Shown here piece by piece: positions 23,734 to 42,668 of a DNA stretch of 64,000 nt. The position numbers and the translations under genes are program-made. Source of the DNA: Rhodovulum euryhalinum (GTDB lineage: Bacteria > Pseudomonadota > Alphaproteobacteria > Rhodobacterales > Rhodobacteraceae); the NCBI RefSeq assembly GCF_004342445.1, contig NZ_SLWW01000008.1, positions 52,667 to 116,666 of the forward strand. Direction: 5' to 3'. Each line of letters starts with the position of its first letter. The first letter of the stretch is position 1. The notes beneath the pieces are model-generated. The model was not told the DNA's origin. It worked only from the letters and a program-made list of their open reading frames with translations, and ran no database searches.

Positions 23734-25455
23734 TCAGGCGCTGCCGCTGACGGGCTTGAGAAAGGCGAAGTCGCAGCCCTCGTCGGCCTGAAGCACGTGC
23801 TCGGCATAGAGCCGGTCATAGCCCCGCCGCGCCTCGGGCGGCACGATGCCGGGGCTCCAGTCCGCGCGGCGGCGGTCGAGTTCCGCGTCGTCCACCAGCA
23901 GGTCGATCCGCTTCCCTGCCACCGACAGGCGGATCCGGTCGCCCGTGCGCACCAGCGCCAGCGGCCCGCCGATCGCGGCCTCGGGGGCGACATGCAGGAC
24001 GATGGTGCCGAAGGCGGTGCCCGACATCCGCGCGTCCGAAATGCGGATCATGTCCTTGAGCCCCTTCGACGACAGCTTCTTCGGGATCGGCAGATAGCCC
24101 GCCTCGGGCATGCCGGAGGCGCTTTTCGGCCCGGCGTTCTGCAGCACCATGATGTCGTCGGCGGTGATGTCGAGATCGGGGTCGTCGATGCGCGCGGCGA
24201 GGTCTTCGAGCGAGGAAAAGACCACCGCCCTGCCCTCGTGCTCGAACAGGCTTTTGTCGGCGGCCGAGCGTTTCAGGATCGCGCCCCGCGGCGCGAGGTT
24301 GCCGAACAGCGCGACGAGGCCGCCCTGAGGTTCCAGCGGCGCTTCGGCCGAGGCGATCACGTTGCGGTCGACAAAGCCGGGATCGGTTTCCAGCCGGTCC
24401 CCCAGCGTTTCGCCGGTGACGGTCAGCGTGTCGAGATGCAGCAAGGGTTTCAGTTCGCGCAGCACGGCCCCTACCCCGCCCGCGAAGAAGAAATCCTCCA
24501 TGTAGTGGTTGCCCACCGGTTTGAGGTTCACCAGCACCGGGGTTTCGTCGGAAAGTTCATTGAGGCGGGCGAGCGGAATGTCGATCCCAAGCCGTCCGGC
24601 GACCGCGGTCAGGTGGATGACCGCGTTGGTGGACCCGCCCAGCGCCAGCAGCACCCGCAGCGCGTTCTCGACCGATTTCCCGGTGATGACCTGGCTGGGC
24701 CGGATCGGATGATCGATCATCCTTGCGGCGGCCAGCCCCGAGGCCTCGGCCGCGCGCAGGCGGTCGGCATGGACCGCCGGGATCGCCGCGGTTCCGGGCA
24801 GCGCCATGCCCAGCGTCTCGGCGATGCAGGCCATGGTCGACGCCGTGCCCATAACCGCGCAGGTGCCCGCGGTGGTGGCCAGCCGCCCCTCGATCTCGTT
24901 GATTTCCGCGGTGGAAATCTCGCCCGCGCGATACTTGCCCCAGAAGCGGCGGCAATCGGTGCAGGCGCCCAGCCGTTCAGTGCCATAGCGCGAGGTCATC
25001 ATCGGCCCGGCGACCAGTTGCACCGCCGGCAGGTCGGCCGAGGCCGCACCCATCAGCTGGGCGGGCACCGTTTTGTCACAGCCGCCCACCAGCACGACGG
25101 CATCCATCGGCTGGGCGCGGATCATCTCCTCGGTGTCCATGGCCATGAGGTTGCGGAATTTCAGGCTGGTGGGGTTCAGGAACACCTCGCCCAGCGAGAT
25201 GGTGGGAAACTCGATGGGCAGCCCGCCACCCAGCAGGACGCCGCGTTTGACGGCCTCGATCAACTCGGGGAAATGCCGGTGGCAGTTGTTGAAACCCGAC
25301 GCGCTGTTGGCGATGCCGACGATGGGTTTCTTCAGCACCTCGCGGGAGTAGCCCATCGAGGCTGCGAAGGAGTTGCGCAGGTAGACCGAGAAATCGCGGT
25401 CGCCGTAATTCGTGAGACCGCGGGCAAGGCCCCGGTCCGTGGTTTCGTCACTCAT
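23734..25455 (-). CDS. IlvD/Edd-family dehydratase (sugar-acid dehydratase type)
   Basis: A 573-residue iron-sulfur dehydratase that removes water from a 2,3-dihydroxy acid to give a 2-keto-3-deoxy acid. The three cluster cysteines are visible: Cys58 in NNCHR, Cys126 in GGCDKT and Cys199 in TAGTCAVMGT. The GCDKTVPAQLMGAASADLP context is closer to pentonate/hexonate dehydratases than to biosynthetic IlvD. It is the last gene of the long catabolic cluster and starts nine bases after the aldehyde dehydrogenase stop. The actual sugar or cyclic acid is not determined. Confidence 0.85.
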   Translation of the reverse strand: MSDETTDRGLARGLTNYGDRDFSVYLRNSFAASMGYSREVLKKPIVGIANSASGFNNCHRHFPELIEAVKRGVLLGGGLPIEFPTISLGEVFLNPTSLKFRNLMAMDTEEMIRAQPMDAVVLVGGCDKTVPAQLMGAASADLPAVQLVAGPMMTSRYGTERLGACTDCRRFWGKYRAGEISTAEINEIEGRLATTAGTCAVMGTASTMACIAETLGMALPGTAAIPAVHADRLRAAEASGLAAARMIDHPIRPSQVITGKSVENALRVLLALGGSTNAVIHLTAVAGRLGIDIPLARLNELSDETPVLVNLKPVGNHYMEDFFFAGGVGAVLRELKPLLHLDTLTVTGETLGDRLETDPGFVDRNVIASAEAPLEPQGGLVALFGNLAPRGAILKRSAADKSLFEHEGRAVVFSSLEDLAARIDDPDLDITADDIMVLQNAGPKSASGMPEAGYLPIPKKLSSKGLKDMIRISDARMSGTAFGTIVLHVAPEAAIGGPLALVRTGDRIRLSVAGKRIDLLVDDAELDRRRADWSPGIVPPEARRGYDRLYAEHVLQADEGCDFAFLKPVSGSA

Positions 25456-25464
25456 TTTAAACCC

Positions 25465-26907
25465 TTACCGCGCGAGCTTCATCTTGACGTATTTCGGATC
25501 GAGATAATCGTGGAGGCCCAGCGACCCGCCCTCGCGGCCCATCCCGCTTTCCTTGATGCCGCCGAAGGGGGCTTCGGCGGTGGCGAGCAGCATCTCGTTC
25601 ACGCCGATCATGCCGCATTCGAGGTCTTCGTAGGCTTTCGTCGCCGTGGTCAGGTCATTCGAGAAGACGTAGCCCGCCAGCCCGAAGGGCAGCGAGTTCG
25701 CCCGTTCCATCACCTCGTCATAGGTGCGGAAGGGGGTGATGGGGGCGATGGGGCCGAAGGGTTCCTCGCGCATCACGCGGGCGTCGTCGGGGACGTGGCC
25801 CAGCACCGTGGGCGCAAAGAAGAAGCCGCGGTTGATGCCCTCGGGGCGGCGGCCGCCGGCGAGGATTTCCGCGCCCCGGTCCACCGCGTCGGCCACGAGG
25901 TCCTGGATGGTCGAGAGGCCGCGGGCATTCGCCATCGGGCCCATCTGCACGCCCTCGTCGAGGCCGCGACCCAGCTTCAGCCCGTTCGCCACCTCGGCGA
26001 AGCGCTTGGAGAACCGGTCGTAAAGGGAGTCGTGGACGTAGAACCGGGTGGGCGAGATGCAGACCTGGCCGCAATTGCGGAACTTGGTGGCGGCGCAGGT
26101 CTCGGCGACTTTCTCGGGGTCGACATCGTCGAAGATCAGCACCGGGCCGTGGCCGCCCAGTTCCATCGACACGCGTTTGACGCCGTCAGCGGCCAGCCGC
26201 AGGATCTCCTTGCCGACGGGGACCGACCCCGTGACCGACACCTTGCGCACGATGGGCGAGGCGATCAGGCGCTCGGCGATCAGGCCGGAATTGCCGGTCA
26301 GGAAGTTGACCGCCCCCGCGGGCACGCCCGCATCGTGGCAGGCGCGGATGAGGGCGGCGCAGGAGGCGGGGGCCTCGCCCGCGGGTTTCACGATGATCGA
26401 ACAGCCCGCGCCGAGGGCGGCGGCGATCTTGCGCGCCGGGAGCAGCGCGGGGAAGTTCCAGGCGCTGAAGGCGGCGACCACGCCCACGGGTTGATGGATC
26501 ACGGCCATGCGGGCATCGGGCGTGCGCGCCTCGATGATCTGGCCGTAGATGCGCTTGGTCTCCTCGGCATACCATTCGAACTGGTCGGCGGCGGCGCCTG
26601 TCTCGCCCCGCGCCTCGGCCAGCGGCTTGCCGGTTTCCAGCGACATCAGCGTGGCGATCTCGTCCACGCGGGCGCGGATCAGGTCCGCCGCGCGGCGCAG
26701 TATCGCGCCGCGCTCCCACGTCCCGGTCTGGCGCCACTGGGCAAAGCCCGCCCTGGCGGCGGCAAGGGCCGCGTCGATATCGGCCTCGGTCGCCACCGCG
26801 ATGGTGCCAAGCTGCTCCTCGGTCGCGGGGTCGTGGACGCCACGGGTCGCCCCGTCGCTGGCCGCGCGCCAGTCGCCGCCGATGAACAGGTCCAGATCGT
26901 GATACAT
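25465..26907 (-). CDS. NAD(P)-dependent aldehyde dehydrogenase (succinate-semialdehyde-dehydrogenase type)
   Basis: A 480-residue class I aldehyde dehydrogenase. The catalytic set is intact: Asn151 in AWNFP, Glu249 in MELGGHGP and the nucleophile Cys283 in NCGQVCIS. The overall pattern (PVGVVAAFSAWNFP, PFGGIKESGMGREGG) resembles succinate- or ketoglutarate-semialdehyde dehydrogenases. The frame is open to 27051, but the ATG at 26907 has GAGGGACAC upstream and lies eight bases after the upstream gene. In this cluster it probably oxidises a semialdehyde released late in the pathway. Confidence 0.9.
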   Translation of the reverse strand: MYHDLDLFIGGDWRAASDGATRGVHDPATEEQLGTIAVATEADIDAALAAARAGFAQWRQTGTWERGAILRRAADLIRARVDEIATLMSLETGKPLAEARGETGAAADQFEWYAEETKRIYGQIIEARTPDARMAVIHQPVGVVAAFSAWNFPALLPARKIAAALGAGCSIIVKPAGEAPASCAALIRACHDAGVPAGAVNFLTGNSGLIAERLIASPIVRKVSVTGSVPVGKEILRLAADGVKRVSMELGGHGPVLIFDDVDPEKVAETCAATKFRNCGQVCISPTRFYVHDSLYDRFSKRFAEVANGLKLGRGLDEGVQMGPMANARGLSTIQDLVADAVDRGAEILAGGRRPEGINRGFFFAPTVLGHVPDDARVMREEPFGPIAPITPFRTYDEVMERANSLPFGLAGYVFSNDLTTATKAYEDLECGMIGVNEMLLATAEAPFGGIKESGMGREGGSLGLHDYLDPKYVKMKLAR

Positions 26908-26914
26908 GTGTCCC

Positions 26915-28813
26915 TCAGATGTTCTGTTGCAGGTAGCGCGACTGGACGTCGTCGACCCAGTTGCCGACATTCCAGCTGCCATAGGCGCCCATTTCCGAAA
27001 TCGGATCGCGCCCGTTGTAGACGGGGATATGGACCAGCGAGAGCCCGTCATGGGCGTGGGCCTGTTGCAGCGCCGCCTCGAGGTCCTTGAGTGAATGGCC
27101 GCCGTAAAGCGCCTTCACCCCCGCGACCGCGGCGGCCATCTTGACGTAGTCGACGGCGACGCTGTCGTTCGTGGCGAATTCCACGCCGTATTGCGCGTAT
27201 TGCAGGCCGGTGATCGCGGCCATCCGGCGGTTGTCGAAGAGCGCGATCATGCCGCGCACCCCATGTTCCACCGCGTCGATCAGCACCTGCGGGTTCATCA
27301 TGAACGACCCGTCGCCGGTGAAGGCGATGGCGTATTTCGGGTCGCGCGCGCCCGCCGCGCCCATCAGCGCCGAGACCGCGAAACCCATATAGGAGGCGCC
27401 GGTTTCGGTGAAGGTTTCGCCCGGCGCGTCATCCTCAACGATCTGGAAGCCGTTGGCCTGCACGTCGCCCGCGTCGAAGAACTTGATGGCATCGTGGGCC
27501 TTGGCGAAACGGGCGACCGCGCCGATGGCGGCGGGCTGGGTGAGGCAGTCGCGCCCGAAGGTCGCGTCGTGCAAGGGCGGCGCCGAGAGGCGGCTTTGCT
27601 TGAAGGCGGTCCATTCGGCTTTCTTGGCGGCGCAGGCGGCGAGCCACTCGGGCCGCTCGGCCCGTTCGGTGGCGGCGATCAGGCGCTCGGCCACCGCGCC
27701 CACGTCGCCGGGCAGGCAGATGGTGTTGGCGTAGTGGCTGACATCGTCCAGATCGCCGTTGATGTTGATGACAGCGCGCGCGTTCGGATAGCCCACGCCC
27801 GAGCAATCGGCCTGGCAGACGCCGCGGGAGCCCGCGAAGATCACCAGGTCGGCCTCTTCCATCGCGAAATTGCCGCTGATCGAGCCCTTGGAGCCGCCCA
27901 CATGCATGTTCTGCGGATGCGCGTCGGGCAACACGCCGGTGGAGCCGGGCGACAGGACCACCGCCGCGCCCAGGTGTTCGGCCAGCCGCCGGATCGCCCC
28001 GGGCGCGCCGCGGGTGCCGCCACCGGCCTTGATCACGGGGCGTTCGGCTTTCGCCAGCAGCTCCCCTGCCCGCTCGAACACGCCGCTGCCGCCCGCGGGG
28101 GCCATGCGCGGCACGTCCAGCCGGCCAGGCAGCGTGGCGAGGTTCAGTTCGGCCTGCTGCGGCTGGGTGTTGATCGGCAGAAGGATGTAGAACGGCCCGG
28201 CCTTGTAGGGGTGATGGGTGCAGGCGGTGCCGCGGCGCAGGCATTCGCGCAAGGCTTCGGGCGTGTGGAGCGTGTAGGACTGGCCCATCAGCGCGGTGAT
28301 CCGGCCGAACATGCCCTGTTCGGGCTTGGGCACCTGCTGCATGTTGTAGCCCTCGCCCCGGGTCGTCTCGTCGCCGTAGATGTGGTAGACGCCGATGCCG
28401 TTCGAGGCGGCCGCGAGCGAGCCCGCCATCGCCTGCAGCGCGCCCGGCCCGATCGACGTGACCACGGCGGGGGTTTCGCCGTAGACCCAGGCGTGCGCCG
28501 TGGCGGCATGTGCCATCTCGACCTCGTTGCGGCAGTGGATCACGCTGACCTGCCCCTCCTCGGCATAGACGCGCAGCACGTTGCCCAGATCGGTCGAGCC
28601 ATGGCCGAAGATCGCGAAGAAGGTGCGCACCCCCTGCCGCAACAGGCCCAGCACCAGCCCCTCGGACAGCGTCAGCGTGGCCTGCGCGGGCAGGCGGCCG
28701 GCGGCCAGCGCCTGGGCGACGCCCCCGGATTCGGCCAGCGCGCGGGCACGCTCGCGCATCTGGGCCTCAAGGGGCGTATCGGGGCGGTCATTCGGATGGG
28801 GTGACTGAAGCAC
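26915..28813 (-). CDS. Thiamine diphosphate-dependent enzyme, IolD-like (acetolactate synthase superfamily)
   Basis: A 632-residue ThDP enzyme. Features shared with IolD (cyclic 1,2-dione hydrolase of inositol catabolism) are IFGHG near residue 68, RNEVEMAHAA near 95 with the catalytic Glu97, TSIGPGA near 119, and a C-terminal YGSWNVG. GDGSFMMN is the Mg-ThDP-binding block. It starts within the last 26 bases of the TctA gene; an ATG at 28759 is an alternative. IolD cleaves a C-C bond in a cyclic diketone, so a ring-opening step is inferred. Its substrate could still be acyclic. Confidence 0.82.
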   Translation of the reverse strand: MLQSPHPNDRPDTPLEAQMRERARALAESGGVAQALAAGRLPAQATLTLSEGLVLGLLRQGVRTFFAIFGHGSTDLGNVLRVYAEEGQVSVIHCRNEVEMAHAATAHAWVYGETPAVVTSIGPGALQAMAGSLAAASNGIGVYHIYGDETTRGEGYNMQQVPKPEQGMFGRITALMGQSYTLHTPEALRECLRRGTACTHHPYKAGPFYILLPINTQPQQAELNLATLPGRLDVPRMAPAGGSGVFERAGELLAKAERPVIKAGGGTRGAPGAIRRLAEHLGAAVVLSPGSTGVLPDAHPQNMHVGGSKGSISGNFAMEEADLVIFAGSRGVCQADCSGVGYPNARAVININGDLDDVSHYANTICLPGDVGAVAERLIAATERAERPEWLAACAAKKAEWTAFKQSRLSAPPLHDATFGRDCLTQPAAIGAVARFAKAHDAIKFFDAGDVQANGFQIVEDDAPGETFTETGASYMGFAVSALMGAAGARDPKYAIAFTGDGSFMMNPQVLIDAVEHGVRGMIALFDNRRMAAITGLQYAQYGVEFATNDSVAVDYVKMAAAVAGVKALYGGHSLKDLEAALQQAHAHDGLSLVHIPVYNGRDPISEMGAYGSWNVGNWVDDVQSRYLQQNI

Positions 28814-30320
28814 TTGCCTTGTCCTCCGTTCTGCGGGCGGAAAGCGTGGCGCGGGTGGCGCGGACGACCTGGGTGCCGACGATCAGCACCGCGAGGCCCA
28901 GGAACACGGCGGCGGGAAGGGATCCGACGAAGACCGACGGATCGCCTTCGGACAGGATCATGGCGGTGCGGAACTCGCGCTCGATCGCGGGGCCAAGCAC
29001 GAGGCCCAGGATGATCGGCGTCAGCGGGATGCCGACCCGCATCAGCCCGTAGGCCATGGCCCCCAGCACCGCGACCGAGATCACGTCGAAGACCGAGTTG
29101 CGGATCGCGAAGGCGCCATAGGCGCACATGATGATGATCCCGACCGCCAGAAGGTGGGCGGGCACGCGCAGCACCTGCACGAAGAAGCGGATGCCCAGAA
29201 GCTGGATCGCGACGACCGAGACATAGGCCACGATGATGGCAAGGTAGATCTGGTAGATCTCGCCGGGGTTCTGGATGAACAGCATGGGCCCCGGGATCAG
29301 ACCGTGGATCAGCAGCCCCGACAGCAGGATCGCGGTGGCCGGGTCCCCGGGGATGCCCAAGGACAGCAGCGGGATCATCGCGCCCCCCGTCACCGCGTTG
29401 TTCGCGGTTTCGGGCGCGACGACGCCCGCCATCTCGCCCTTGCCGAAGCGTTCGGGGCGTTTCGAGGATTTCTGCGCATGGGCATAGGCCAGGAACGCCG
29501 CGATCGGCCCGCCCGTGCCGGGGATCGCGCCGATGCCCGTGCCCAGCAGCGCGCAGCGCAGCATCAGCCAGAAATCCCGCAGGATGTCGCGGATGGTGGG
29601 CAGTTCGGCGCGGACATCGGCCACCGCCTCGATCCGGCGACCGCCGGTGTAGTGGTCGACAAAGGCGTCGATCACGTGCGGCACGGCGAAAAGCGCGATC
29701 ATGGCGACCAGCAGGCTGATGCCCTGCTGCATCACCACCGTGCCGAAGGTCAGCCGCTGCACGCCCTCCATCTCGTCGATGCCGATGGTCATCACCATCA
29801 GCCCCAGCACACCCGCGATCAGCCCCTTGACCAGCGATTTCTGCGCCAGCCCGCAGATCGTCGACAGCCCGAAGACCAGCAGGCCGAAGGTCTCGGCCGG
29901 GCCGAAGCGCAGCGCCAGTTTCGCCACCATGTCGACCGAGACGACCATCACGATCAGGCTGACGATGCCGCCGAAGGCCGAGGCCACGACCGCCGTGCCC
30001 AGCGCCAGCGACGCCTTGCCCCGGCGCGTCAGCGGATAGCCGTCCAGCACCGTCGCCGCCGCCGAGGGCGTCCCGGGGATGCCCAGCAGGATCGCCGGGA
30101 CCGAGCCCCCGGTCATGCCGCCGATATAGGTGCCGAGCAACAGCCCGATGGCCGGCGCGGTCTCCAGCGAAAAGGACATCGGCACCACCAGCGCCATGGC
30201 CACCGTGAAGGTCAGCCCCGGGATCGCCCCGAAGATCACCCCCAGAAGCGTGCCCGCCAGGACCGCCAGAAGGGCCGCGGGCGCAAGCGCCACCTGGGCT
30301 GCGGTCAGCAAGAGGTCCAT
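28788..30320 (-). CDS. Tripartite tricarboxylate transporter large permease, TctA family (TTT set 2)
   Basis: A 510-residue membrane protein with the paired TctA motifs: GAIPGLTFT near residue 31 and GAIPGTGGP near residue 261, plus a VAPETANNAVTGG loop. About 12 helices are expected. Its 3' end overlaps the start of the IolD-like gene by 26 bases, which links transport to catabolism in one transcript. The gap to TctB (30321-30375) contains a G/C hairpin. Confidence 0.93.
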   Translation of the reverse strand: MDLLLTAAQVALAPAALLAVLAGTLLGVIFGAIPGLTFTVAMALVVPMSFSLETAPAIGLLLGTYIGGMTGGSVPAILLGIPGTPSAAATVLDGYPLTRRGKASLALGTAVVASAFGGIVSLIVMVVSVDMVAKLALRFGPAETFGLLVFGLSTICGLAQKSLVKGLIAGVLGLMVMTIGIDEMEGVQRLTFGTVVMQQGISLLVAMIALFAVPHVIDAFVDHYTGGRRIEAVADVRAELPTIRDILRDFWLMLRCALLGTGIGAIPGTGGPIAAFLAYAHAQKSSKRPERFGKGEMAGVVAPETANNAVTGGAMIPLLSLGIPGDPATAILLSGLLIHGLIPGPMLFIQNPGEIYQIYLAIIVAYVSVVAIQLLGIRFFVQVLRVPAHLLAVGIIIMCAYGAFAIRNSVFDVISVAVLGAMAYGLMRVGIPLTPIILGLVLGPAIEREFRTAMILSEGDPSVFVGSLPAAVFLGLAVLIVGTQVVRATRATLSARRTEDKASASVTPSE

Positions 30321-30375
30321 GGGTTCCTTCCCGTCGTTGAACGGCGGGCCCCGGGATGCGGGCCCCGCCGCGCGT

Positions 30376-30888
30376 TCAGAAGAGCGATATCCAGGTGCCC
30401 CGCGGCATGTAGGCGCCGAGCACCTGACCGAAGGCGAGCCACGCGCCCACCGCGATCCCCAGCGCCATGCCCGCCACGATCAGAGGGCGGCGTTCGCCGA
30501 GGACGACCACCAGCGTCGCCGCCACGGTCAGCGCGGTCGCGGGCAGGAAGCCGATCTTCTGCATCAGCACGCCGTAGACCGCGATGATACCGCAGACCGC
30601 CGCGACCAGCCCGAGCCGCAACCCGGTCGAGACCGTGGCGCCCGCGGGCGGGTCGTCGTCCTCGGCGTCCGCGGGCGGGGGACTGCCGCGCAACCCCCGG
30701 CCGAACAGCACCGCCGACAGCACCGCCAGCGCGACCCCGAGCCAGAACGGAAAGGCTCGGGGCCCGATGCCGTCGAAGCCCGGCGGCACCGTCCGCCAGA
30801 CCGTCGCCGTCCAGGCCAGCGCGAACAGCAGAAGGATGCCCCCCGCGATCAGGTCCAGGCGGCGGCTCTGGTCGGGCTCCGCGCTCAT
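30376..30888 (-). CDS. Tripartite tricarboxylate transporter small permease, TctB family (TTT set 2)
   Basis: A 170-residue protein with four hydrophobic helices and the TctB pattern of a first helix, a GPRAFPFWLG loop near residue 42 and a helical pair at the end. It begins four bases after the TctC gene and precedes TctA, so all three transport subunits are present. A short hydrophilic linker between helices 2 and 3 is Asp/Pro-rich, as is common. Confidence 0.87.
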   Translation of the reverse strand: MSAEPDQSRRLDLIAGGILLLFALAWTATVWRTVPPGFDGIGPRAFPFWLGVALAVLSAVLFGRGLRGSPPPADAEDDDPPAGATVSTGLRLGLVAAVCGIIAVYGVLMQKIGFLPATALTVAATLVVVLGERRPLIVAGMALGIAVGAWLAFGQVLGAYMPRGTWISLF

Positions 30889-30892
30889 CGGA

Positions 30893-31855
30893 TCACTGCG
30901 CCTTGAGGCCGAGCTGGCCCATCAGGTCCGCGATCGTCCTGTCGTCGCGGGCGATCAGCTCGCCGAAGGCGGCGTGATCGGCATAGTCGACCTCGAAGCC
31001 GATGGTCTGCGCGGCGGCCTTGAACTCCTCGCTTTCGGTGGCCATCTTCGCGGCCTCCTCCAGCTTGGCGACCGTCTCGGGTGGCGTGCCCGCGGGCGCG
31101 GCCAGGCCCCGCCACATCACCAGATCCAGGCCCTCGGCCCCGCTTTCGGCGCAGCTCGGCACGTCGGGCAGTTGCGATATCCGCTTGGCCGAGGTGACGC
31201 ACAGGATCTTGAGCGTGCCCGCCTCGTGGTGCGAGATGAACTGGCCCGGCCATTGCAGCGCGGCGTCCAGACGGCCTGCGATCAGCTCGACCGGCGCGCG
31301 GCCCTGGTCATAGGGGACGTGCACGGCCATGTCCGACAGCCCCACCGCGGCGAGGATCGCCTCGGTCGACAGGTGCGTGAACGACCCCTTGCCCGAGGCC
31401 CCGACCTTCAGCTTGGCGCCGCTCGCCTTGATGTCGGCGGCCATGTCGGCCAGCGAATCCCAGCCGGAATCGGCACGCACCGCAAAGGCCGGCACCTCGA
31501 CCGAGATCTTGGCGATGGGCTGGAACGCGGTATGGTCGAAGCCGATCTTGCCGCCGTGATAGCTGGTGCTGATCGAGTTCGAGTTCCAGACGATGTTGTA
31601 GCCGTCCGCGGCCGTGCCGTGGACATGCTGATAGCCGACCGCCCCGCCGCCGCCGGTGCGCGCGACCGGCACCACAGGTTCGGGCATGTGCTTGGACATC
31701 AGGTCCGCCAGCAACTGCCCGATGGTCTGGGCGGTGCTGCCGAACAGGATGGTCATCTCGACCGGCTTTTCCGGAAACTCGGCCCGGGCCGGGGCCGCAA
31801 GGCCCACGGCCATCGCCGCCGACACAAGGACGGACGCGAAAATCCCCTTCGTCAT
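30893..31855 (-). CDS. Tripartite tricarboxylate transporter periplasmic binding protein, TctC family (TTT set 2)
   Basis: A 320-residue binding protein with a clean signal peptide (cleavage near ARA/EFP, residue 26). The TctC ligand-loop pattern is ILFGSTAQT near residue 36 and RTGGGGAVGYQ near residue 65. AGGGAGGAG precedes the ATG at 31855. It sits directly downstream of the isomerase/epimerase gene inside the catabolic cluster, so its ligand is probably the pathway substrate. A carboxylate group is likely but not proven. Confidence 0.91.
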   Translation of the reverse strand: MTKGIFASVLVSAAMAVGLAAPARAEFPEKPVEMTILFGSTAQTIGQLLADLMSKHMPEPVVPVARTGGGGAVGYQHVHGTAADGYNIVWNSNSISTSYHGGKIGFDHTAFQPIAKISVEVPAFAVRADSGWDSLADMAADIKASGAKLKVGASGKGSFTHLSTEAILAAVGLSDMAVHVPYDQGRAPVELIAGRLDAALQWPGQFISHHEAGTLKILCVTSAKRISQLPDVPSCAESGAEGLDLVMWRGLAAPAGTPPETVAKLEEAAKMATESEEFKAAAQTIGFEVDYADHAAFGELIARDDRTIADLMGQLGLKAQ

Positions 31856-31962
31856 CGTGGTTCTCCTCCCTCTCGAAATGCCGCTTGGCGCGGCGTGCGG
31901 CAGTCCTCCACTGCCAGTTCATTCTGCGGCTCGCCCCTCCCGCGGGCGACCCGTCCCTTTGG

Positions 31963-32895
31963 TCAGTCTGGTCGCTGGGACAGCGCCCAGGCGTCGCGGA
32001 TCACCCGCTTGGCGTTGGCCATGATCACCTCGGAGACCTCGCCGGCCAGCACGGGCCGCACCTCGGCGCTGACCACCGGGCGCACGGGCTTGTCGAAGAA
32101 GCCGACCTTGCGAAGCTCCCTGAAGAAGGTCACGACCTCGGGCGTATCCGTCTCGCCGCCGGGGATGCCGAAGCGGGGCTGGATGTCGCCATAGGCGGGG
32201 TGCGACTTGTCGCGGAAGGCGCAGTTGCCCAGGTGCACGGCGTCCAGCCACTCGGCCATGAGGGGAATGCTTTCCTCGGGCTTTTCGTCGAGCAGCGGGA
32301 AATGGCTGAGATCGGTCAGCAGGCCGAAATTCGGGTAGTCCGGGCGAATGGCCTTGGCGATGTCCACCGCATCCCCCACCGGGCCGATCAGGTTCTTCTT
32401 GTCGATGCCGCGGTCGAAGATCTTCAGCGTGAAGGCCAGCCCGTCCTTCTCCTCGGCCGCGTAGTCAAGGATCTGGTGCAGCGAGTCGATCAGCAACTTC
32501 TTGGCCTCGTCGCGCTTGGCGTCGCCCGGGTCCTTGCCGGCGATCAGGCGGACCACCTCGGCGCCGAGCTGGCGCGCCTCGTCCACCGCGCTCTTGATCT
32601 CCTGCACCGCCTTGGCACGTTCGCCCGTGTCGAAATGGTTGAGGTTCAGCTTGTTGGTCAGCGATTTCGGCTGGGTGGCATAGGCGACCGACAGGTGGCT
32701 CTGGTCCAGCAGGTGACGGGCGGTGTTCCTGACCCGGTAATCCTTCATCCAGCCCACCTCGACGGCGGTCCAGAACTCGTCGGCGCAGATCTTCTCCAGC
32801 GTCTCGACGATGGGCCCCGCGCCCGTCTCGATGCCGGGGAAGGCCTTGAAATGGACGATGCCGACCCGCATCGCGCTGTACATCGAGGTTTCCAT
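31963..32895 (-). CDS. Sugar phosphate isomerase/epimerase family TIM-barrel protein (AP endonuclease 2-like fold)
   Basis: A 310-residue protein of the xylose-isomerase-like TIM barrel superfamily. Visible metal-site candidates include a Glu in AVEVGWMKDY near residue 45, FGLLTDLSHFPLL near residue 203 (Asp and His) and DAVHLGN near residue 229 (His). The family includes IolE-type inosose dehydratases, hydroxypyruvate isomerases and epimerases, and the sequence alone does not choose between them. The ATG at 32895 has AGGGAGAG upstream and is preferred over 32931. It lies 37 bases before nothing but the next transport genes, within the same operon. Confidence 0.8.
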   Translation of the reverse strand: METSMYSAMRVGIVHFKAFPGIETGAGPIVETLEKICADEFWTAVEVGWMKDYRVRNTARHLLDQSHLSVAYATQPKSLTNKLNLNHFDTGERAKAVQEIKSAVDEARQLGAEVVRLIAGKDPGDAKRDEAKKLLIDSLHQILDYAAEEKDGLAFTLKIFDRGIDKKNLIGPVGDAVDIAKAIRPDYPNFGLLTDLSHFPLLDEKPEESIPLMAEWLDAVHLGNCAFRDKSHPAYGDIQPRFGIPGGETDTPEVVTFFRELRKVGFFDKPVRPVVSAEVRPVLAGEVSEVIMANAKRVIRDAWALSQRPD

Positions 32896-32937
32896 GCTCT
32901 CTCCCTGTCCCTCGTGCCGCCCTCGCGGCACCCCTTG

Positions 32938-33957
32938 CTATTCCGCGGCCTCGCGGGCGGCCGCCGCGCGGGCCTGTTTCTCGGCGATGGCCGCCAGCAC
33001 CTTTTCCGGCGTCGCGGGCAGCGACCGGATGCGCACGCCCACCGCGTCGTGGATCGCGTTGATGATCGCGGGCGCGGTCGGCACCAGCGCGGGCTCGCCG
33101 ATCCCCTTGGCGCCCAGCGGGCTGAGGGGGTCGGGGTCCTCGACCAGGATCGAGGTGATCTCGGGCACGTCCAGCGCGGTCGGCAGGATGTATTTCGCGA
33201 ACCCATGCGTCACCGGATGGCCGTTCGCGGTCTGGTAATCCTCCATCAGCGCCTGGCCCAGGCCCTGCACCACACCGCCCTCGATCTGGCCCTCGACGCC
33301 GCGGGGGTTGATGACCCGGCCCACGTCATGGGCGGCCCAGAGGCCGAGGACCTGCACCTCTCCGGTCACCGTATCGACCTCGACCTCGGCGACCTGGGTG
33401 CCGAAGACATAGGCCTGCCAGGGCGCCCCCGAGCCGTCCTCGGGGTTCAGCCCCGTGCCGTGCGCGGCGAAATGTCCCGCGCCCACCGGCACCACGCCGC
33501 GCCGTTTGCACAGGTCCACCGCCTCGGCCATGGTCATGGCGAGGTTGGTGCCCTCGGCGCGCAACTCGCCGTCGAAGGCGACCAGCGTGCCCGCGTCCAC
33601 CTCCCAATGGGCGGCGATTTCCGCGAACAGCCGGGCCTTCGCCTCGCGGCAGGCGAGCGCCACGGAATTGCCGATCATGTAGGTCTGGCGCGTGGCGCCC
33701 GCATGGGCCGCCTCGGGCGAGCGCGCGGTATCGTTGTCGCCGATGGTCACGTCCTCGGGGCGGATGCCCAGTTCCTCGGCGGCGATCTGGGCGAGCACCG
33801 TCAGGATGCCCTCGCCGATCTCGGTCACGCCGGTCACCACCTTGGCGGTGCCGCCGTCATCCAGTTCCGCCCAGGCGCCGGCGCGGTCCACCGTGGCGGT
33901 CCGCGCGATGCCGTACCAGCTTGCCGCGACGCCGCGGCCGCGCATCTTGCGTTGCAT
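32938..33957 (-). CDS. Molybdenum hydroxylase large subunit, C-terminal part (xanthine dehydrogenase family)
   Basis: A 339-residue protein equal to the second half of a xanthine-dehydrogenase-family molybdopterin subunit. It contains the molybdopterin-binding segments TGVTEIGEG and SPEAAHAGATRQTY, and GAKGIGEPA at 282-290, where Glu288 is the catalytic base. Its ATG overlaps the stop of the upstream gene by one base (TGATG), so the two halves are probably translated in coupled fashion. Split molybdopterin subunits are known in nicotinate dehydrogenase of Eubacterium (NdhL/NdhM). A recent frameshift in a once-fused gene is the alternative. Confidence 0.85.
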   Translation of the reverse strand: MQRKMRGRGVAASWYGIARTATVDRAGAWAELDDGGTAKVVTGVTEIGEGILTVLAQIAAEELGIRPEDVTIGDNDTARSPEAAHAGATRQTYMIGNSVALACREAKARLFAEIAAHWEVDAGTLVAFDGELRAEGTNLAMTMAEAVDLCKRRGVVPVGAGHFAAHGTGLNPEDGSGAPWQAYVFGTQVAEVEVDTVTGEVQVLGLWAAHDVGRVINPRGVEGQIEGGVVQGLGQALMEDYQTANGHPVTHGFAKYILPTALDVPEITSILVEDPDPLSPLGAKGIGEPALVPTAPAIINAIHDAVGVRIRSLPATPEKVLAAIAEKQARAAAAREAAE

Positions 33958-35834
33958 CAGGCCACCCTTTCCTTGCTGTCCTTCGGCGTCTCGAACCGCG
34001 CGCCCAGCGTGCAGGGCGCCCGCGTGCCCGGGCCCCCAAGGTCGCCCCGCATCGGTCCGCGCATGGTGGGCGCACCCGGCTCCCAGCGTGACGCCTGTTC
34101 GGCCGCCTCCAGCACCCGGTCGATCGAGGCCGAGGTCAGCCGTTGCTGCGTGTGGGTGAGCGAGCCCGCCCGCATCATGTTGCGCCGCCGGATCTCGAAC
34201 GGGTCGAGGCCCAACCGTTCGGCGGCGATGTCCATCATGCTTTCGGTGGCGAACTGCGCCTGCATGCCGCCGAAGGTGCGGAAGGCACCCGACGGCGTGT
34301 TGTTGGTGTAGACGGCGGTGGTGTCGACCTGGAGGTTCTCGATCTCGTAGGGGCCGCAGGACAGGATCGCTGCCTTGCGCATCACGCCCTCGGACGACAT
34401 GCCATAGGCGCCGCCATCGGACAGCATCTCGAACCGGATCGCGGTGATGCGGCCGTCCTTCGTCAGCCCCATGCGGTATTTCACGCGGGAGGGGTGGCGT
34501 TTGGCCGAGGCGATGATCGATTCCTCGCGGGTGAAGACGAGGCGCACGGGGCGGTCGGTCTTCATCGCGGCCAAGGCCAGCATGCCCTGGTAGATCATGT
34601 CCTCCTTGCCGCCGAAGCCGCCGCCGACGGGCGACATGATGAAGCGCACCTTGTTGATGGGCCTCGCGATGATCTCGGACAGCATGTGGCGGTGGTGGGT
34701 GATGTTCTGGCTGGGCGAAATGACGGTCACGACGTCATCGGCATCCACGTAGGCCAGCCCCGCCTCGGGTTCGAGATAGGCATGTTCGACCTGCTGGGTC
34801 GAGAATTCGTCCTCGAGGATCAGGTCGGCCTCGGCGAAGCCCTTGTCCACGTCGCCCTTCCGGATCGGGATGTGCTTCACCACGTTGTCGGGGGCGTAGT
34901 CGTGGATGACGGGCGCGCCGGGTCTCAGCGCGTCCTCGGGGTCGAAGAGGCCCGGCAATTCCCGGTACTCGACCCTGATCTTCGCAAGCGCGCGGCGGGC
35001 GGTGGCGACGTCCTCGGCGGCCACCGCGGCGACCGCCTCGCCGACATGGCGAACCTTGCCGCGGGCCATCACCGGCTGGTCATGGACGAAGACGCCGAAG
35101 CCGTCCTTGCCCGGCACATCGGCCGAGGTAATGACGCAGGCCACGCCCTCCACCGCCTCGGCCTCGGAGGTGTCGATGGAGACGATCTCGGCATGGGCAT
35201 GGGGCGAGCGCAGGACGGCCATGTGCAGCATGCCCGGCATCACCATGTCGCCCGCGTATTTCAGCCGCCCGGTCACCTTGGAGGGCGCATCCAGCCGCCG
35301 GACATTGTGGCCGATATAGCTCTCGCCCACGCCTTCCGGCTCCAGCACGGCGGGGCTGGCGCGGCCCGTCACCACGTCGCGGGCGAGCGCCACGGCCTCG
35401 ATGATCTTGGTATACCCCGTGCAGCGGCAGATATTGCCGCCCATGCGTTCCTTGATCTCGTCAAGGCTGGCCTCGGGCGCCTCGCGCAGCAGCGAGGTCG
35501 CGGCCATCACCATGCCGGGGATACAATAGCCGCACTGGCTGGCCCCGGTCTTGTGGAACGCCTTCTGGAGGACGTCCAGTTCGCCCGGCCTGGCCAGCCC
35601 CTCGACGGTCTGGATATCGGCGCCTTGCGCCTTGGCGGCGGGCATCAGGCAGGATTTCACCAGCTTGCCATCGACGAACACGCTACAGGTGCCGCATTCC
35701 CCGGCGCCGCAGCCTTCCTTGGTGCCGGTCAGGTTGAGTTCATCGCGCAGGAAATCCAGCAGGCGCTGGCCGGGGTCGGCACGGCGCGTCACCTTGCGGC
35801 CGTTCACCCGCATGTCCAGTGTCATCTCAGGCAT
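33957..35834 (-). CDS. Fused [2Fe-2S] subunit and N-terminal molybdopterin subunit of a molybdenum hydroxylase
   Basis: A 625-residue fusion. Residues 1-160 form the two-cluster iron-sulfur subunit with all eight cysteines (42, 47, 50, 62 and 101, 104, 136, 138; motifs GCGAGECGTC, CGYC, CRCTGY). Residues about 165-625 are the N-terminal half of the molybdopterin subunit, with DAPSKVTGRLKYAGD and PVGGGFGGKED. The protein then stops before the catalytic-Glu half. The frame is open to 35975, but AAGGAGG precedes the ATG at 35834. With the FAD subunit and the next gene it makes one enzyme that hydroxylates an aldehyde or ring carbon. The substrate is unknown. Confidence 0.88.
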   Translation of the reverse strand: MPEMTLDMRVNGRKVTRRADPGQRLLDFLRDELNLTGTKEGCGAGECGTCSVFVDGKLVKSCLMPAAKAQGADIQTVEGLARPGELDVLQKAFHKTGASQCGYCIPGMVMAATSLLREAPEASLDEIKERMGGNICRCTGYTKIIEAVALARDVVTGRASPAVLEPEGVGESYIGHNVRRLDAPSKVTGRLKYAGDMVMPGMLHMAVLRSPHAHAEIVSIDTSEAEAVEGVACVITSADVPGKDGFGVFVHDQPVMARGKVRHVGEAVAAVAAEDVATARRALAKIRVEYRELPGLFDPEDALRPGAPVIHDYAPDNVVKHIPIRKGDVDKGFAEADLILEDEFSTQQVEHAYLEPEAGLAYVDADDVVTVISPSQNITHHRHMLSEIIARPINKVRFIMSPVGGGFGGKEDMIYQGMLALAAMKTDRPVRLVFTREESIIASAKRHPSRVKYRMGLTKDGRITAIRFEMLSDGGAYGMSSEGVMRKAAILSCGPYEIENLQVDTTAVYTNNTPSGAFRTFGGMQAQFATESMMDIAAERLGLDPFEIRRRNMMRAGSLTHTQQRLTSASIDRVLEAAEQASRWEPGAPTMRGPMRGDLGGPGTRAPCTLGARFETPKDSKERVA

Positions 35835-36732
35835 GGAGAGCCTCCTTGCGTTGGGCGACACGCGCCCGCTCTGCGGCCTCTTCCAGCGCGGCGCAGACAA
35901 AGCCCGGCACCACGCGGCGGCGATAGTCGACGCGGCTCCGCGAGGCGACGCGGGCAGCCGTGGCCGCGGCGGCATCTTCGATCAGGCGGGTGTCGACCGG
36001 TTCGCCCTTCAGACGGTCCTCGATATCGCGCAGGCGTTCCGGCACCGGGCCGACACCGCCCAAGGCGAGGCGCACGTCCGCGAAGCGGGTGCCGGTCTCG
36101 TCCAGTTTCACCAGGGCGGCGACGCAGGCGACGGAAATGACCAGCGAGCGGCGCTGGCCGACCTTCTGGAACGACGCGCCATAGCCGTCGGCGCAGTCGA
36201 GCGTCACGGAATTCACAAGCTCGCCGGGAGCAAGCCGCGTGGCGCCGGGGCCGGTCACGAAATCCTCGACCCGCATGGTGCGGCACAGGATGTGATCGCC
36301 CGCCCAGCGGCACAGTTCCAGTTCGCCGTTCAGCGCAAGGACGGGCGGCGTGCCGTCGGCCGCCGGAGAGGCGTTCACCAGGTTGCCCGCCAGCGTCGCC
36401 TGCTGGCGGATCTGGTCGTCGGCGAACCAGACCGCGCAATGGGGCATCACCGGCAGCCAGCGAGCGAGTTGCGCGTCGTCCAGGAAATCCTGCCAGACGG
36501 TGTTGGCGCCCAGTCGGACCCGGGAACCATGACGTTCATGGCCCTGCAATTCCGCGACCCGGCTGAGGTCGATCCCCAGCGGCAGGTCCACGTCGCCCGC
36601 GCGCCCCTCGCGCGCCCAGGGCAGGATGTCGGTCGCGCCCGCCACCAGCCGCGCGCCCTCGGGGGCATCCGCCCACAGCGCCAGCGCCTCGGGCAGCGTC
36701 GCGGGCATCTCGTATCGGTCGAATGTCAGCAT
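35827..36732 (-). CDS. FAD-binding subunit of a molybdenum hydroxylase (xanthine dehydrogenase family medium subunit)
   Basis: A 301-residue protein with the vanillyl-alcohol-oxidase-type FAD domain: VAGATDILPW near residue 29 and GNLVNASPAADG near residue 116, the two FAD-contact motifs of CoxM-type subunits. A C-terminal domain (about 175-285) follows. The start at 36732 is preferred over 36756 because it is nearest the family N-terminus and has a purine-rich AGGGGCCAGGGAC leader. Its end overlaps the iron-sulfur fusion gene by eight bases. It passes electrons from the iron-sulfur clusters to an acceptor. Confidence 0.9.
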   Translation of the reverse strand: MLTFDRYEMPATLPEALALWADAPEGARLVAGATDILPWAREGRAGDVDLPLGIDLSRVAELQGHERHGSRVRLGANTVWQDFLDDAQLARWLPVMPHCAVWFADDQIRQQATLAGNLVNASPAADGTPPVLALNGELELCRWAGDHILCRTMRVEDFVTGPGATRLAPGELVNSVTLDCADGYGASFQKVGQRRSLVISVACVAALVKLDETGTRFADVRLALGGVGPVPERLRDIEDRLKGEPVDTRLIEDAAAATAARVASRSRVDYRRRVVPGFVCAALEEAAERARVAQRKEALHA

Positions 36733-36792
36733 GTCCCTGGCCCCTCCCTTGGCCATGGACGGGGCCGCCTGTCCCGGGGCGGCCCCGAAGGG

Positions 36793-37956
36793 TCATTCGG
36801 CGGCCACGCGCCTGGCCTCGGCGTGCTTGTTCTTCACCACGACCTTGATCGCGTCCTCGACCCGGTCCTTGGCGTAGCGGATCGCCTCCTTGAGGTCCTC
36901 CATCTCGAAGGTATGGGTGTGGATCAGCGTGGCGTCGAACCGCTTCTGCCGCATGAACGCCTCGGCCCGATGGGTCGCGGATTTCCCTTCGCCGCGAATC
37001 CCGTAGACGTAGATGTTGTTGCGCACCAGATGCGCCACGTCGACCTGCGGCGGCTCGCCCGGGAAGGCGGCGAGGCAGACCTTGCCGCCGCGGTTGACCA
37101 TCTGGCAGGCCTCGTTGATCGCGTTGGCCGCGGCGGAACATTCCAGCACGTAATCGACGCCCACCCCGCCGTTCAGACGCTTGACCGCCTCGACCGGGTC
37201 CTCGTTGCGGACGTTGACGACGTAATCGGCGCCCAGCTTCTTGCCCATTTCCAGCCGGTTGTCGCGGGTGCCGGTCAGGATGACGGGCTGCGCGCCCAGC
37301 GCCTTGGCGACCGCCACGCCCAGAAGGCCGATCGGGCCGGGCCCCGTGACCACCACGCTTTCGCCCGCGACCAGCCCGCCAAGCTCGGTCAGGCCATACA
37401 TCGCGGTGCCGGCGGTCACGACCAGCGTCGCCTCCTCGTCCGACATGCTGTCATCGACATGGATCAGCGTGTTGATGTTGTTGACCTGGTATTCGCAGAA
37501 CCCACCATCGGTGGTGAAGCCGTTGGCGCGGTGGCCCTTGTCCACGTCGCCGTAATTCTTGCCGTAGTTGTGGCAGGACGTGTACATGCCCTGCCGGCAA
37601 CGCTTGCACTGGCCGCAGCCGGCGTGGATTTCCACGGTCACCCGCTCGCCGATCCTGTATTCATCGACGCCCGGGCCCAGCGCCACCACGGTGCCCATGT
37701 ATTCGTGCCCCGGCGTGAAGTTCTTGTTGAAGGGCGCACCGCCCTCGATCTGGGCCGGCGGCCCGTGATAGATGATCTCGAGGTCGGTCGCGCAGATCGC
37801 CACCGCGTCGATCCGGACCAGCACCTCGGCCCGCTTCGGCACCGGTACCGGCTTCTCGGCAAGCGTCAGCTCGCCCGGATCGCCCAGCACCCAGGCCTTC
37901 ATCGTCTCGGGGATCGGATAGGCGCTATCCGTCCTTACGCCCGCTGGCATCGCCAT
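36793..37956 (-). CDS. Zinc-dependent alcohol dehydrogenase (MDR superfamily)
   Basis: A 387-residue medium-chain dehydrogenase. The catalytic-zinc ligands are Cys in AICATD and GHEYMG, and the structural-zinc cysteines are in GCGQCKRCRQGMYTSC. The Rossmann motif is GPGPIGLLGVAVA near residue 200. AAGGGAGGAAAT precedes the ATG at 37956. It is the first catabolic gene after the IclR regulator and likely oxidises a secondary alcohol of the imported compound. It resembles threonine/sorbitol-type dehydrogenases, but the substrate is not assigned. Confidence 0.9.
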   Translation of the reverse strand: MAMPAGVRTDSAYPIPETMKAWVLGDPGELTLAEKPVPVPKRAEVLVRIDAVAICATDLEIIYHGPPAQIEGGAPFNKNFTPGHEYMGTVVALGPGVDEYRIGERVTVEIHAGCGQCKRCRQGMYTSCHNYGKNYGDVDKGHRANGFTTDGGFCEYQVNNINTLIHVDDSMSDEEATLVVTAGTAMYGLTELGGLVAGESVVVTGPGPIGLLGVAVAKALGAQPVILTGTRDNRLEMGKKLGADYVVNVRNEDPVEAVKRLNGGVGVDYVLECSAAANAINEACQMVNRGGKVCLAAFPGEPPQVDVAHLVRNNIYVYGIRGEGKSATHRAEAFMRQKRFDATLIHTHTFEMEDLKEAIRYAKDRVEDAIKVVVKNKHAEARRVAAE

Positions 37957-38023
37957 CTGGATTTCCTCCCTTTGGTCCCTGTTTTCCCGTGTCTTTCCCG
38001 CTTCAGATGTGCCGCCCCTCTCC

Positions 38024-38881
38024 CTAGTGGCGGCTCAGACGCAGCCGGTCCGACAGCTTGCGGGCGCAGCCCACGACCTCTTGCGCGACATGCTCGCGGC
38101 AAGGTTCGGTCGCCAGCGCCACCGGCATCGAGGCCGAGATCGAGGCGATCACCGCGCCCTTCTCGTCCCTGAGCGCCGCGCCATAGCAGACCACGCCCGT
38201 CTTCAACTCCTCGTTGTCGACCGCAAAGCCGTTGCGGCGGACCCAGCGCAACTCCTCGGTCAGATCCGCAAGACTGGTGATCGTCCGGTCGGTGAAGCGT
38301 TGCAGCCCGTTTTCCGAGATGATCTTGAGCACCTGGTCCTCGGGCAGCCAGGCAAGGATCGCCTTGCCCGTGGCCGTGGCATGGGCCGCGCGCATCTTGA
38401 CCACCTCGTCGGCCTCGATCACGTGGGTCTCGGCCACGTTGGCCTTGAACCGGGTCACCAGCGCGGCGCCCTGCATCTCGGCCAGTTGCACGCTCAGCCC
38501 CAACTGGCCCGACAGGCCGATCAGGTCGGTGCGCGCGAAATCGGACAGGTCCGCCTTGCGTGCGTTGGTCTCGGTCAGTTCCTGCAACCGCGAGGACAGC
38601 ATGTATCCACGGTTGCGCCCGGCGTTCAGCACATAGCCACGCTCGACCAGGGTGGCGATCAGGTGGTGGCAGGTCGAGACGTTCAGCCCGGCGCGGGCCG
38701 CGACCTCGCCCAGCGCCAGCGCATCCGGCGCGGCGGCGAGGATCTCGATGATCGTCAGGGCACGTTCGACCGACTGGATGCGCCGTGCGCCCTTGTCGGC
38801 GGACGCGTCCGACGCGCCCCCGGCGGCAAGCCCCGCCGGCCCGTCCTGCCGCACGGCATGTGTTCGCGCAGTTTCGGTCAC
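38024..38881 (-). CDS. IclR-family transcriptional regulator
   Basis: A 285-residue regulator with an N-terminal winged helix-turn-helix (LGEVAARAGLNVSTCHHLIATL near residue 55) and a C-terminal GAF-like IclR effector domain containing RMRAAHATATGKAILAWL-type sequence. The frame is open to 38911, but GTG at 38881 has GGGGAGGA six bases upstream and is preferred. It is transcribed toward the alcohol dehydrogenase and the rest of the catabolic cluster and may be cotranscribed with it. Two near-palindromes lie upstream (38935-38968). It probably senses a pathway intermediate. Confidence 0.9.
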   Translation of the reverse strand: MTETARTHAVRQDGPAGLAAGGASDASADKGARRIQSVERALTIIEILAAAPDALALGEVAARAGLNVSTCHHLIATLVERGYVLNAGRNRGYMLSSRLQELTETNARKADLSDFARTDLIGLSGQLGLSVQLAEMQGAALVTRFKANVAETHVIEADEVVKMRAAHATATGKAILAWLPEDQVLKIISENGLQRFTDRTITSLADLTEELRWVRRNGFAVDNEELKTGVVCYGAALRDEKGAVIASISASMPVALATEPCREHVAQEVVGCARKLSDRLRLSRH

Positions 38882-38934
38882 GATGTCCTCCCCGCACAGA
38901 CGCTGGCCCATGGTTGGATTCGCGTCAAGTTATT

Positions 38935-40926: not shown

Positions 40927-40927
40927 G

Positions 40928-40944
40928 TTTACAACATTACAAAA
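40928..40944. promoter_or_regulatory. TTGTAA direct repeat at the start of the ScfR-like regulator gene
   Basis: On the minus strand TTGTAATG is followed immediately by TTGTAAAC, an eight-base-spaced direct repeat, with its end two bases from the ATG. Direct repeats of TTTGCAAA type are known for PccR. This could be an autoregulatory site. Confidence 0.35.
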
Positions 40945-40952
40945 TGATAGGC

Positions 40953-40979
40953 TTGTTGTCTTCACTCTTATCACAACAA
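40953..40979. promoter_or_regulatory. Inverted repeat TTGTTGT-N13-ACAACAA in the divergent regulatory region of TTT set 3
   Basis: Seven-base perfect arms at 40953-40959 and 40973-40979 have centres 20 bases apart, two turns of the helix. They lie between the divergent regulator and the TctC gene, so a dimeric regulator could bind here. The rest of 40980-41103 shows only the TctC ribosome-binding site (AGGGAGGAAG). Confidence 0.45.
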
Positions 40980-41103
40980 CCCTTTTAGGTGTGGAATTTT
41001 CTGCCTGCGCCGTAATTCTCGGGACATGAAATGGCGCAGCCGGGTTGGCCTGCGAACGGATCGTACCGCGTTGACGTTGCCGTTTCGAACAGGGAGGAAG
41101 AAC

Positions 41104-42084: not shown

Positions 42085-42104
42085 GCCGCCCTGCCCCGTC
42101 ACAG

Positions 42105-42129
42105 CCGGGCGGACCTTGTGTCCGCCCGG
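42105..42129 (+). other. Intercistronic hairpin between TctC and TctB genes (set 3)
   Basis: A perfect ten-base stem (42105-42114 with 42120-42129) closes a five-base CTTGT loop, 20 bases after the TctC stop codon. It is nearly the same stem sequence (CCGGGCGG) as the matP-matQ hairpin at 8098-8121. No T-run follows. Confidence 0.6.
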
Positions 42130-42163
42130 TCCTTCGTGTCCAGCGACCATCAACGGAGCCGCC

Positions 42164-42655: not shown

Positions 42656-42668
42656 GGAGGGCCGGACC

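Follow-up and report, generated by a model that had tools for sequence, protein, structure and literature searches.

The 64,000 nucleotides of Rhodovulum euryhalinum analysed here, hereafter the window (NZ_SLWW01000008.1, our contig C8, positions 52667-116666; assembly size 3.79 Mb), carry a cluster of twelve genes that we read as an operon, linked to an IclR regulator, for the catabolism of an organic hydroxy acid, a reading to which, with the steps proposed below, we give a probability of roughly one half. All twelve lie on the minus strand between window positions 23734 and 38911 and in order of transcription encode an IclR-family regulator, a Zn-dependent alcohol dehydrogenase (ADH), the FAD subunit of a molybdenum (Mo) hydroxylase, its large subunit with the iron-sulphur domains and the N-terminal half of the Mo domain, its small subunit with the C-terminal half, a TIM barrel, TctC, TctB and TctA, a thiamine diphosphate (ThDP)-dependent enzyme, an aldehyde dehydrogenase (ALDH) and an IlvD/Edd-type dehydratase. 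The list of open reading frames (ORFs) and a Pfam scan bear out the original prediction, made from the letters alone, of twelve minus-strand genes of these families with overlaps or short gaps, the intergenic spacing being -26 to 107 bp (computed with an ALDH start at 26910). The observed basis of the reading is the twelve co-directional genes, the linkage of ADH, Mo and ThDP genes, intact motifs and the exchange of importers, and from these we infer the individual steps. The enzyme families are known, whilst for their combination no description was found in the open-licence literature at the level of titles and abstracts, nor was a characterised pathway with orthologues in the same order, as the original prediction had supposed; the cluster is an oxidative acid-catabolism operon with a ThDP family that lacks an assigned role.

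That these genes belong together is apparent from their linkage in other genomes. The ThDP protein was scanned against one genome per species, giving 219 related stretches, and the best 80 by ThDP identity were taken as loci, 53 of them long loci of at least 21.5 kb each, a gene being counted as present on a match of at least 45% identity over half of the query. The three Mo hydroxylase genes (FAD, large and small) lie beside the ThDP gene in 53 of the 53 long loci and ADH in 51, the other two (L051 and L083) having ADH cut by the locus end, and this co-inheritance upholds the earlier view of a single catabolic cluster. ALDH was counted in 42 of the 53, IlvD in 39, IclR in 34, TctA and TctC in 32 each, the TIM barrel in 14 and TctB in 7, with IclR, TctC and TctB undercounted because many of their matches fall below 45% identity. 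Over all 80 loci, many of which are short contigs, the counts are 72 for each of the large and small Mo subunits, 70 for the FAD subunit, 68 for ADH, 61 for ALDH, 58 for IlvD, 46 for IclR, 47 for TctA, 45 for TctC, 18 for the TIM barrel and 10 for TctB. The importer and the TIM barrel are the variable parts, and the gene order is kept over loci from Rhodobacterales, Hyphomicrobiales and Burkholderiales. A chance juxtaposition of unrelated operons is ruled out for the ADH-Mo-ThDP core by its linkage among close relatives.

The best named ThDP match is that of Rhodovulum marinum (95%), and the cluster is present in 4 of 15 other genomes of the genus and in none of 45 further relatives (E<=1e-150; 61 genomes including its own); phylum-wide it was found in 4 of 398 genomes at E<=1e-100, its own genome counted in. 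Judged by these counts this IclR-linked catabolic operon is patchy, and laterally so, in its distribution. In eight loci (L017, L018, L023, L024, L030, L038, L055 and L093, the last from Phaeobacter) IlvD is followed by two genes that clustered together and are annotated in L093 as NAD(P) transhydrogenase alpha and beta, these could balance the NADH and NADPH arising from the pathway.

Whilst the core is linked in close relatives, tail and front end are separable in distant ones. Salipiger has IclR, ThDP, an enzyme like 2-hydroxy-3-oxopropionate reductase (145 bits, cut-off 341), a heme-binding-type protein, an epimerase-like TIM barrel, a TRAP transporter, ALDH and IlvD. In Labrenzia the row is IclR, a Gfo/Idh-family enzyme, ThDP, ALDH and IlvD, with an annotated ABC sugar importer on the opposite strand and a TRAP transporter further on, and Sinorhizobium mexicanum has the same five families (its Gfo/Idh enzyme at 107 bits with the IolG model) with ORFs that read like an ABC importer. 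A further genome, G322, combines a Gfo/Idh enzyme (171 bits with the IolG model, cut-off 355), a TIM barrel, ThDP, ALDH, IlvD and an IclR relative with ORFs reading like a sugar ABC importer, and another, G051, has Gfo/Idh, TIM barrel and ThDP genes with neither ALDH nor IlvD adjacent. We read ThDP-ALDH-IlvD as a reusable tail and ADH-Mo-TTT as one of several front ends, TTT being the tripartite tricarboxylate transporter.

The importer also bears on what kind of compound enters the pathway. All three components of a TTT system were recognised by Pfam within the cluster, the solute-binding TctC (30893..31855, PF03401) and the membrane subunits TctB (30376..30888, PF07331) and TctA (28788..30320, PF01970), and in Afipia (L076) DctA (539 bits, cut-off 513) occupies the position of the TTT genes, with an ORF of near-equal length at that position in L077 and L081 (a comparison of lengths). 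Because both importers are of a type that handles acids, the substrate is probably an acid. A second, divergent TTT set (TctC, TctB, TctA) lies on the plus strand of the window at 41026-46852, followed by a gene like AMP-binding acyl-CoA ligases and one like ketopantoate reductase. Between it and the cluster a minus-strand frame at 39517-42201 carries ScfRs/RamB-like short-chain acyl-CoA regulator domains at residues 431-892 of 894 aa; the gene is probably shorter than the frame, because the upstream part overlaps the plus-strand TctC.

In the proposed pathway TctABC would import the acid and the Zn-ADH would oxidise a secondary alcohol to a ketone, after which the Mo hydroxylase, of xanthine/nicotinate-dehydrogenase type, may add a further oxygen taken from water. 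The ThDP enzyme would then cut the carbon-carbon bond next to the carbonyl to release an aldehyde, ALDH would convert this to a 2,3-dihydroxy acid and the IlvD-type enzyme would dehydrate that to a 2-oxo acid for central metabolism, with the TIM barrel perhaps interconverting stereoisomers or aldose and ketose in some lineages only. The order ADH, Mo, ThDP, ALDH, IlvD is suggested by the chemistry and by the exchange of the front end. Rival explanations differ mostly in the class of substrate, which may be a cyclitol or sugar acid, a short hydroxy acid or an N-heterocyclic acid.

The Mo hydroxylase consists of a FAD subunit (35827..36756, PF00941, PF03450), a large subunit with [2Fe-2S] domains and the N-terminal Mo-domain half (33957..35834, PF00111, PF01799, PF01315, PF02738) and a small subunit with the C-terminal half and a GAKGIGEP motif (32938..33957, PF20256). 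The large subunit probably starts near 35834, since in the longest frame, to 35975, the FeS domain begins only at residue 56. The features of the xanthine dehydrogenase family are present, namely FAD, two [2Fe-2S] domains, MoCoBD domains and the active-site Glu. The two halves are, by comparison with three metagenome-assembled genomes (L051, L067 and L070) in which they are fused as one chain of 963-982 aa, predicted to form one Mo subunit. XdhC-family genes, a type linked to the maturation of Mo hydroxylases, occur near the cluster at L066:15203-16210 and L093:18696-19622. Another Mo hydroxylase lies in the same genome some 39 kb from where the window begins (C8:12438-13409, in regions L112 and L121), 42% identical to the small subunit inside a 1,166-aa frame, and is followed by ORFs apparently encoding an ABC importer of the branched-chain type.

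A rival reading centres on this enzyme: the breakdown of a carboxylated N-heterocycle would begin with the Mo hydroxylase, as it does when nicotinate is fermented. Both halves have as nearest solved chains those of 3hrd (3hrd_A at 322.6 bits for the large subunit, 3hrd_B at 255.4 bits for the small), which we take to be the nicotinate dehydrogenase NdhFSLM of Eubacterium barkeri, and both proteins are divided at the same place. The motif GGGFGGKE is found in 68 of 68 large subunits, AFR[TS]FG in 64 of 68 and KGIGEP in 59 of 59 small-subunit rows, the window included; in the alignments the Glu of the first is common to mammalian xanthine dehydrogenase, whereas 3hrd has Leu (GGGFGGKL). In xanthine dehydrogenase these motif residues bind purines. 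Lactonase-like and cyclase-family genes near loci of the L080 type would also suit such a substrate. In the Pseudolabrys-type loci, one member each scanned, lactonase-like, Gfo/Idh and alpha/beta hydrolase clusters stand in the gene row, and in L080 (12153-21845) and similar loci another gene set with an IclR regulator runs divergently from the cluster, comprising amidohydrolase, cyclase-family, short-chain dehydrogenase/reductase and 3-hydroxyacyl-CoA-dehydrogenase-like genes together with ORFs that look like those of an ABC importer of the branched-chain type. However, no ring reductase, amidase or deaminase family is among the twelve genes, the tail occurs elsewhere beside sugar-type importers, and an IlvD enzyme is expected to require a dihydroxy acid, all of which leaves the N-heterocycle route improbable.

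The ThDP enzyme (26915..28813, PF02775, PF00205, PF02776) is predicted to be a C-C lyase or hydrolase. It is related to IolD, with 184 bits against a cut-off of 715 for the IolD model (TIGR04377), which puts it well below that assignment, and 27% identity to IolD proteins, with which it has the GHG motif in common. Neither this motif (residues 70-72) nor Glu97 varies in any of the 32 rows of the family, and Glu97 aligns with the Glu of acetolactate synthase that has a catalytic role there. In a tree of 23 rows, rooted for drawing only and with four long-branched outer rows, three IolD and 13 window-family rows (16 rows) group together with support of 99/98, outside which stand rows like acetohydroxyacid synthase and glyoxylate carboligase, Thalassospira and haloarchaeal rows, and the window family is its own clade (100/100) on a long stem. 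Going by this tree the enzyme is a family separate from IolD on the IolD side, and we infer one shared reaction for its members, since the invariant residues are kept across several kinds of neighbourhood. Identity with glyoxylate carboligase was rejected, as Glu97 is kept, the nearest model is IolD, and the glyoxylate carboligase-like ThDP enzyme of Enterococcus is only 22% identical; glyoxylate carboligase models were not among the 25 NCBIfam models shown for the window enzyme, of which IolD came first.

This position in the tree speaks for a route in which a carboxylated cyclitol or sugar acid would undergo oxidation of its ring, opening of a cyclic 1,2-dione by an IolD-like reaction, conversion of the aldehyde acid to a diacid and dehydration. 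The Zn-ADH (36793..37956, PF08240, PF00107), in which the catalytic-type Cys55/His84/Glu85 and the four-Cys structural motif are both intact, has 214 bits with the NCBIfam model Tdh and 193 bits with IolM (NF041097), both under cut-off (450 for IolM). The TIM barrel (31963..32931), accessory, xylose-isomerase-like and with a ketose 3-epimerase fold, matches the structure 2zvr and only two models, IolO (NF041099; 46 bits, cut-off 300) and hydroxypyruvate isomerase (19 bits). Plasmid records with an ADH above 60% were only one from Phaeobacter, which is the cluster itself, and six from Thermus (62%), and because the same six Thermus records also hold a TIM relative (54%), ADH and TIM barrel look like an older pair. 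The one Thermus region that was read has both relatives together with TTT genes and with genes for a class II aldolase, a Tm-1-like protein and a member of the creatininase family, the last with 100 bits for the IolN model (cut-off 245), and elsewhere the ThDP family stands beside Gfo/Idh enzymes at 107-171 bits with IolG; the likenesses to IolM, IolO, IolN and IolG speak for a cyclitol.

Against a cyclitol stands that every such score is far under its curated cut-off, that the Mo hydroxylase is without counterpart in any inositol route known to us, and that the genome has relatives of the canonical iol genes elsewhere. On contig C15 lie relatives of Paenibacillus IolG (46%), IolD (48%), IolE (40%), IolB (52%) and IolC (33%), the IolD reaching 923 bits with the IolD model, and because of these the window cluster is unlikely to be the genome's own inositol pathway. 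With tblastn the Paenibacillus IolG, IolE, IolB and IolC had no match in the 64-kb window at E<=1e-3, in agreement with the original prediction that iolB, iolC and iolG homologues are missing from the cluster, and IolD (28%) was the only Iol query to match there. The likeness to inositol catabolism that had been claimed therefore stands in part, with IolD-, IolM- and IolO-related proteins, and falls for an IolE-fold protein as a core member, the TIM barrel being restricted to 14 of the 53 long loci and closer, by the two models it matches, to IolO and ketose epimerases than to IolE. On balance the cyclitol or sugar-acid route is unlikely.

A short hydroxy-acid route, working at the level of tartronate semialdehyde, glyceraldehyde or hydroxypyruvate and ending with an IlvD step from glycerate to pyruvate, draws on other loci and on the regulator. 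In Enterococcus gilvus a TIM relative (37%) lies between a ThDP enzyme whose first NCBIfam model is glyoxylate carboligase (636 bits) and genes for D-2-hydroxyacid dehydrogenase and glycerate kinase, an allantoinase lying about 4 kb upstream of the group. The Salipiger tail, with its 2-hydroxy-3-oxopropionate-reductase-like enzyme, and the swap to DctA would fit, as would the IclR regulator (38024..38911, PF01614, PF09339; the longest frame begins at 38911, not 38881), whose best NCBIfam model is BhcR at 132 bits against a cut-off of 350. Yet the Enterococcus ThDP enzyme shares so little identity with that of the window, the Enterococcus TIM barrel matches no NCBIfam model at 1e-10, all model scores are under cut-off, and the nearest solved structure to the IlvD protein, 8ej0 (549 bits), is only presumably that of an enzyme acting on glycerate. 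The route through short hydroxy acids is thus a doubtful one.

To return to the hydroxy-acid operon favoured here, its last two enzymes are assigned with differing closeness. ALDH (25465..26907, PF00171), NAD(P)-dependent by prediction and like succinate semialdehyde dehydrogenase, has 507 bits with the model TIGR01780, below its cut-off of 646, and its Glu and Cys motifs are intact. The longest frame runs to 27051, and the start is probably near 26907 (Met at residue 49 of the long frame), because related matches mostly begin at residues 45-49, with one at 11. The IlvD/Edd sugar-acid-type dehydratase (23734..25455, PF00920, PF24877) has 829 bits with PRK06131, above the cut-off of 539, and 528 bits with L-arabinonate dehydratase. 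Its three [2Fe-2S]-type Cys are at 58, 126 and 199, each one less than Cys59, 127 and 200 given for L-arabinonate dehydratase in PMC9795676.

Several points weigh against the operon as we propose it. An Mo hydroxylase like xanthine dehydrogenase has no clear chemical role in a sugar-acid route, all comparisons with the IolM, IolO, IolN and IolG models are far under cut-off, and the choice of the best 80 of 219 stretches by ThDP identity is biased towards close kin. Mo genes of this kind were not beside the ThDP gene in five more distant relatives examined, one of which, G051, is also without ALDH and IlvD. Even among the long loci ALDH is absent beside the ThDP gene in 11 of 53 and IlvD in 14. 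For the 14 loci without IlvD, 13 genomes were searchable and all 13 have an unlinked IlvD relative (73-75% identity in nine, 58-63% in the other four). Eight of the 13 regions were inspected, L138 to L143 with a 73-75% copy and L144 and L145 with a 58-63% copy, the proteins of L138, L139 and L144 being scanned. Next to IlvD in L139, L142 and L143 stand sugar-nucleotide-type genes resembling those for sugar aminotransferases, acetyltransferases and glycosyltransferases, which fall into the same clusters in all three; L138, L140 and L141 have a Gfo/Idh-like gene close by, and a 690-717-aa protein without an NCBIfam hit is common to all six. As the neighbourhood differs from the cluster in these six regions, the unlinked IlvD may have a different function and those lineages may lack part of the tail, and the copies were not accepted as proof of a shared pathway. 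The genome of L075 has a 63% IlvD in the neighbourhood of TctC-like proteins and of a protein like the aldolases/lyases of the DapA family.

The cluster had been described as looking like a complete pathway, which is not supported, since no aldolase is encoded in it; the Pfam scan found no aldolase or thiolase among the twelve genes, and there was no aldolase and no common family among ten further genes scanned beside related clusters, which belong to peptidase, radical SAM, MFS, binding-protein, porin, AMP-ligase and deacetylase families. The genome has three matches to the HpcH/HpaI aldolase, the sole aldolase family searched, on contigs C5, C16 and C7, outside the window. A bolder extension, which we hold to be quite improbable and more so than any of the rivals above, is that ThDP-ALDH-IlvD might be a phosphate-free tail for IolD-type ring cleavage, replacing IolB-IolC-IolJ, with the Zn-ADH and the split Mo hydroxylase preparing a carboxylated ring. 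The cyclic dione would pass by way of an aldehyde acid and a deoxy-aldarate to a 2-oxo-4-hydroxy diacid, which an unlinked aldolase would split into pyruvate and a semialdehyde. If true, this would be the first use, as far as is known, of an Mo hydroxylase in the catabolism of a cyclitol acid.

Occurring as it does, patchily, in many Alphaproteobacteria and in some Burkholderiales, an operon of this kind would indicate that a natural acid exists with an undescribed route of breakdown. Its ThDP family, kept across types of front end, could yield a new biocatalyst for the cleavage of carbon-carbon bonds, and the loci listed put the question of the substrate within reach of culturable environmental strains, carriers being Rhodovulum marinum DSM 18063, Phaeobacter piscinae S26 and Xanthobacter autotrophicus DSM 432.

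In comparison with known systems, the cluster resembles myo-inositol catabolism (iolGEDBCJA) in having an IolD-related ThDP enzyme and a preceding NAD-type oxidation, but has a Mo hydroxylase, ALDH and IlvD in place of IolG, IolE, IolB and IolC, together with TTT import. The inositol pathway of Thermotoga maritima runs through IolG-IolM-IolN-IolO, and although the Zn-ADH (193 bits) and the TIM barrel (46 bits) lean towards IolM and IolO, both are far under the cut-offs and no IolN-type hydrolase is among the twelve genes. With nicotinate dehydrogenase NdhFSLM the Mo hydroxylase has in common a Mo domain divided between two polypeptides at the same place, whereas it has no separate small FeS subunit, the FeS domains being part of the large Mo subunit (MoCoBD_1), and no genes of a nicotinate pathway were recognised in the cluster. 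Cyclohexane-1,2-dione hydrolase (2pgn), presumably of Azoarcus origin, is alike in its ThDP superfamily and in the type of reaction proposed, yet the match to it is only 51.6 bits, below the 108 bits of acetolactate synthase 6lpi. Oxidative non-phosphorylative pentose pathways (PMC9795676) use an IlvD-type pentonate dehydratase and an aldehyde dehydrogenase. The cluster likewise has an IlvD/Edd dehydratase with an aldehyde dehydrogenase; unlike those pathways it has no sugar lactonase or 2-keto-3-deoxy-acid dehydratase among its twelve genes, and to the shared pair it adds the ThDP enzyme and the Mo hydroxylase.

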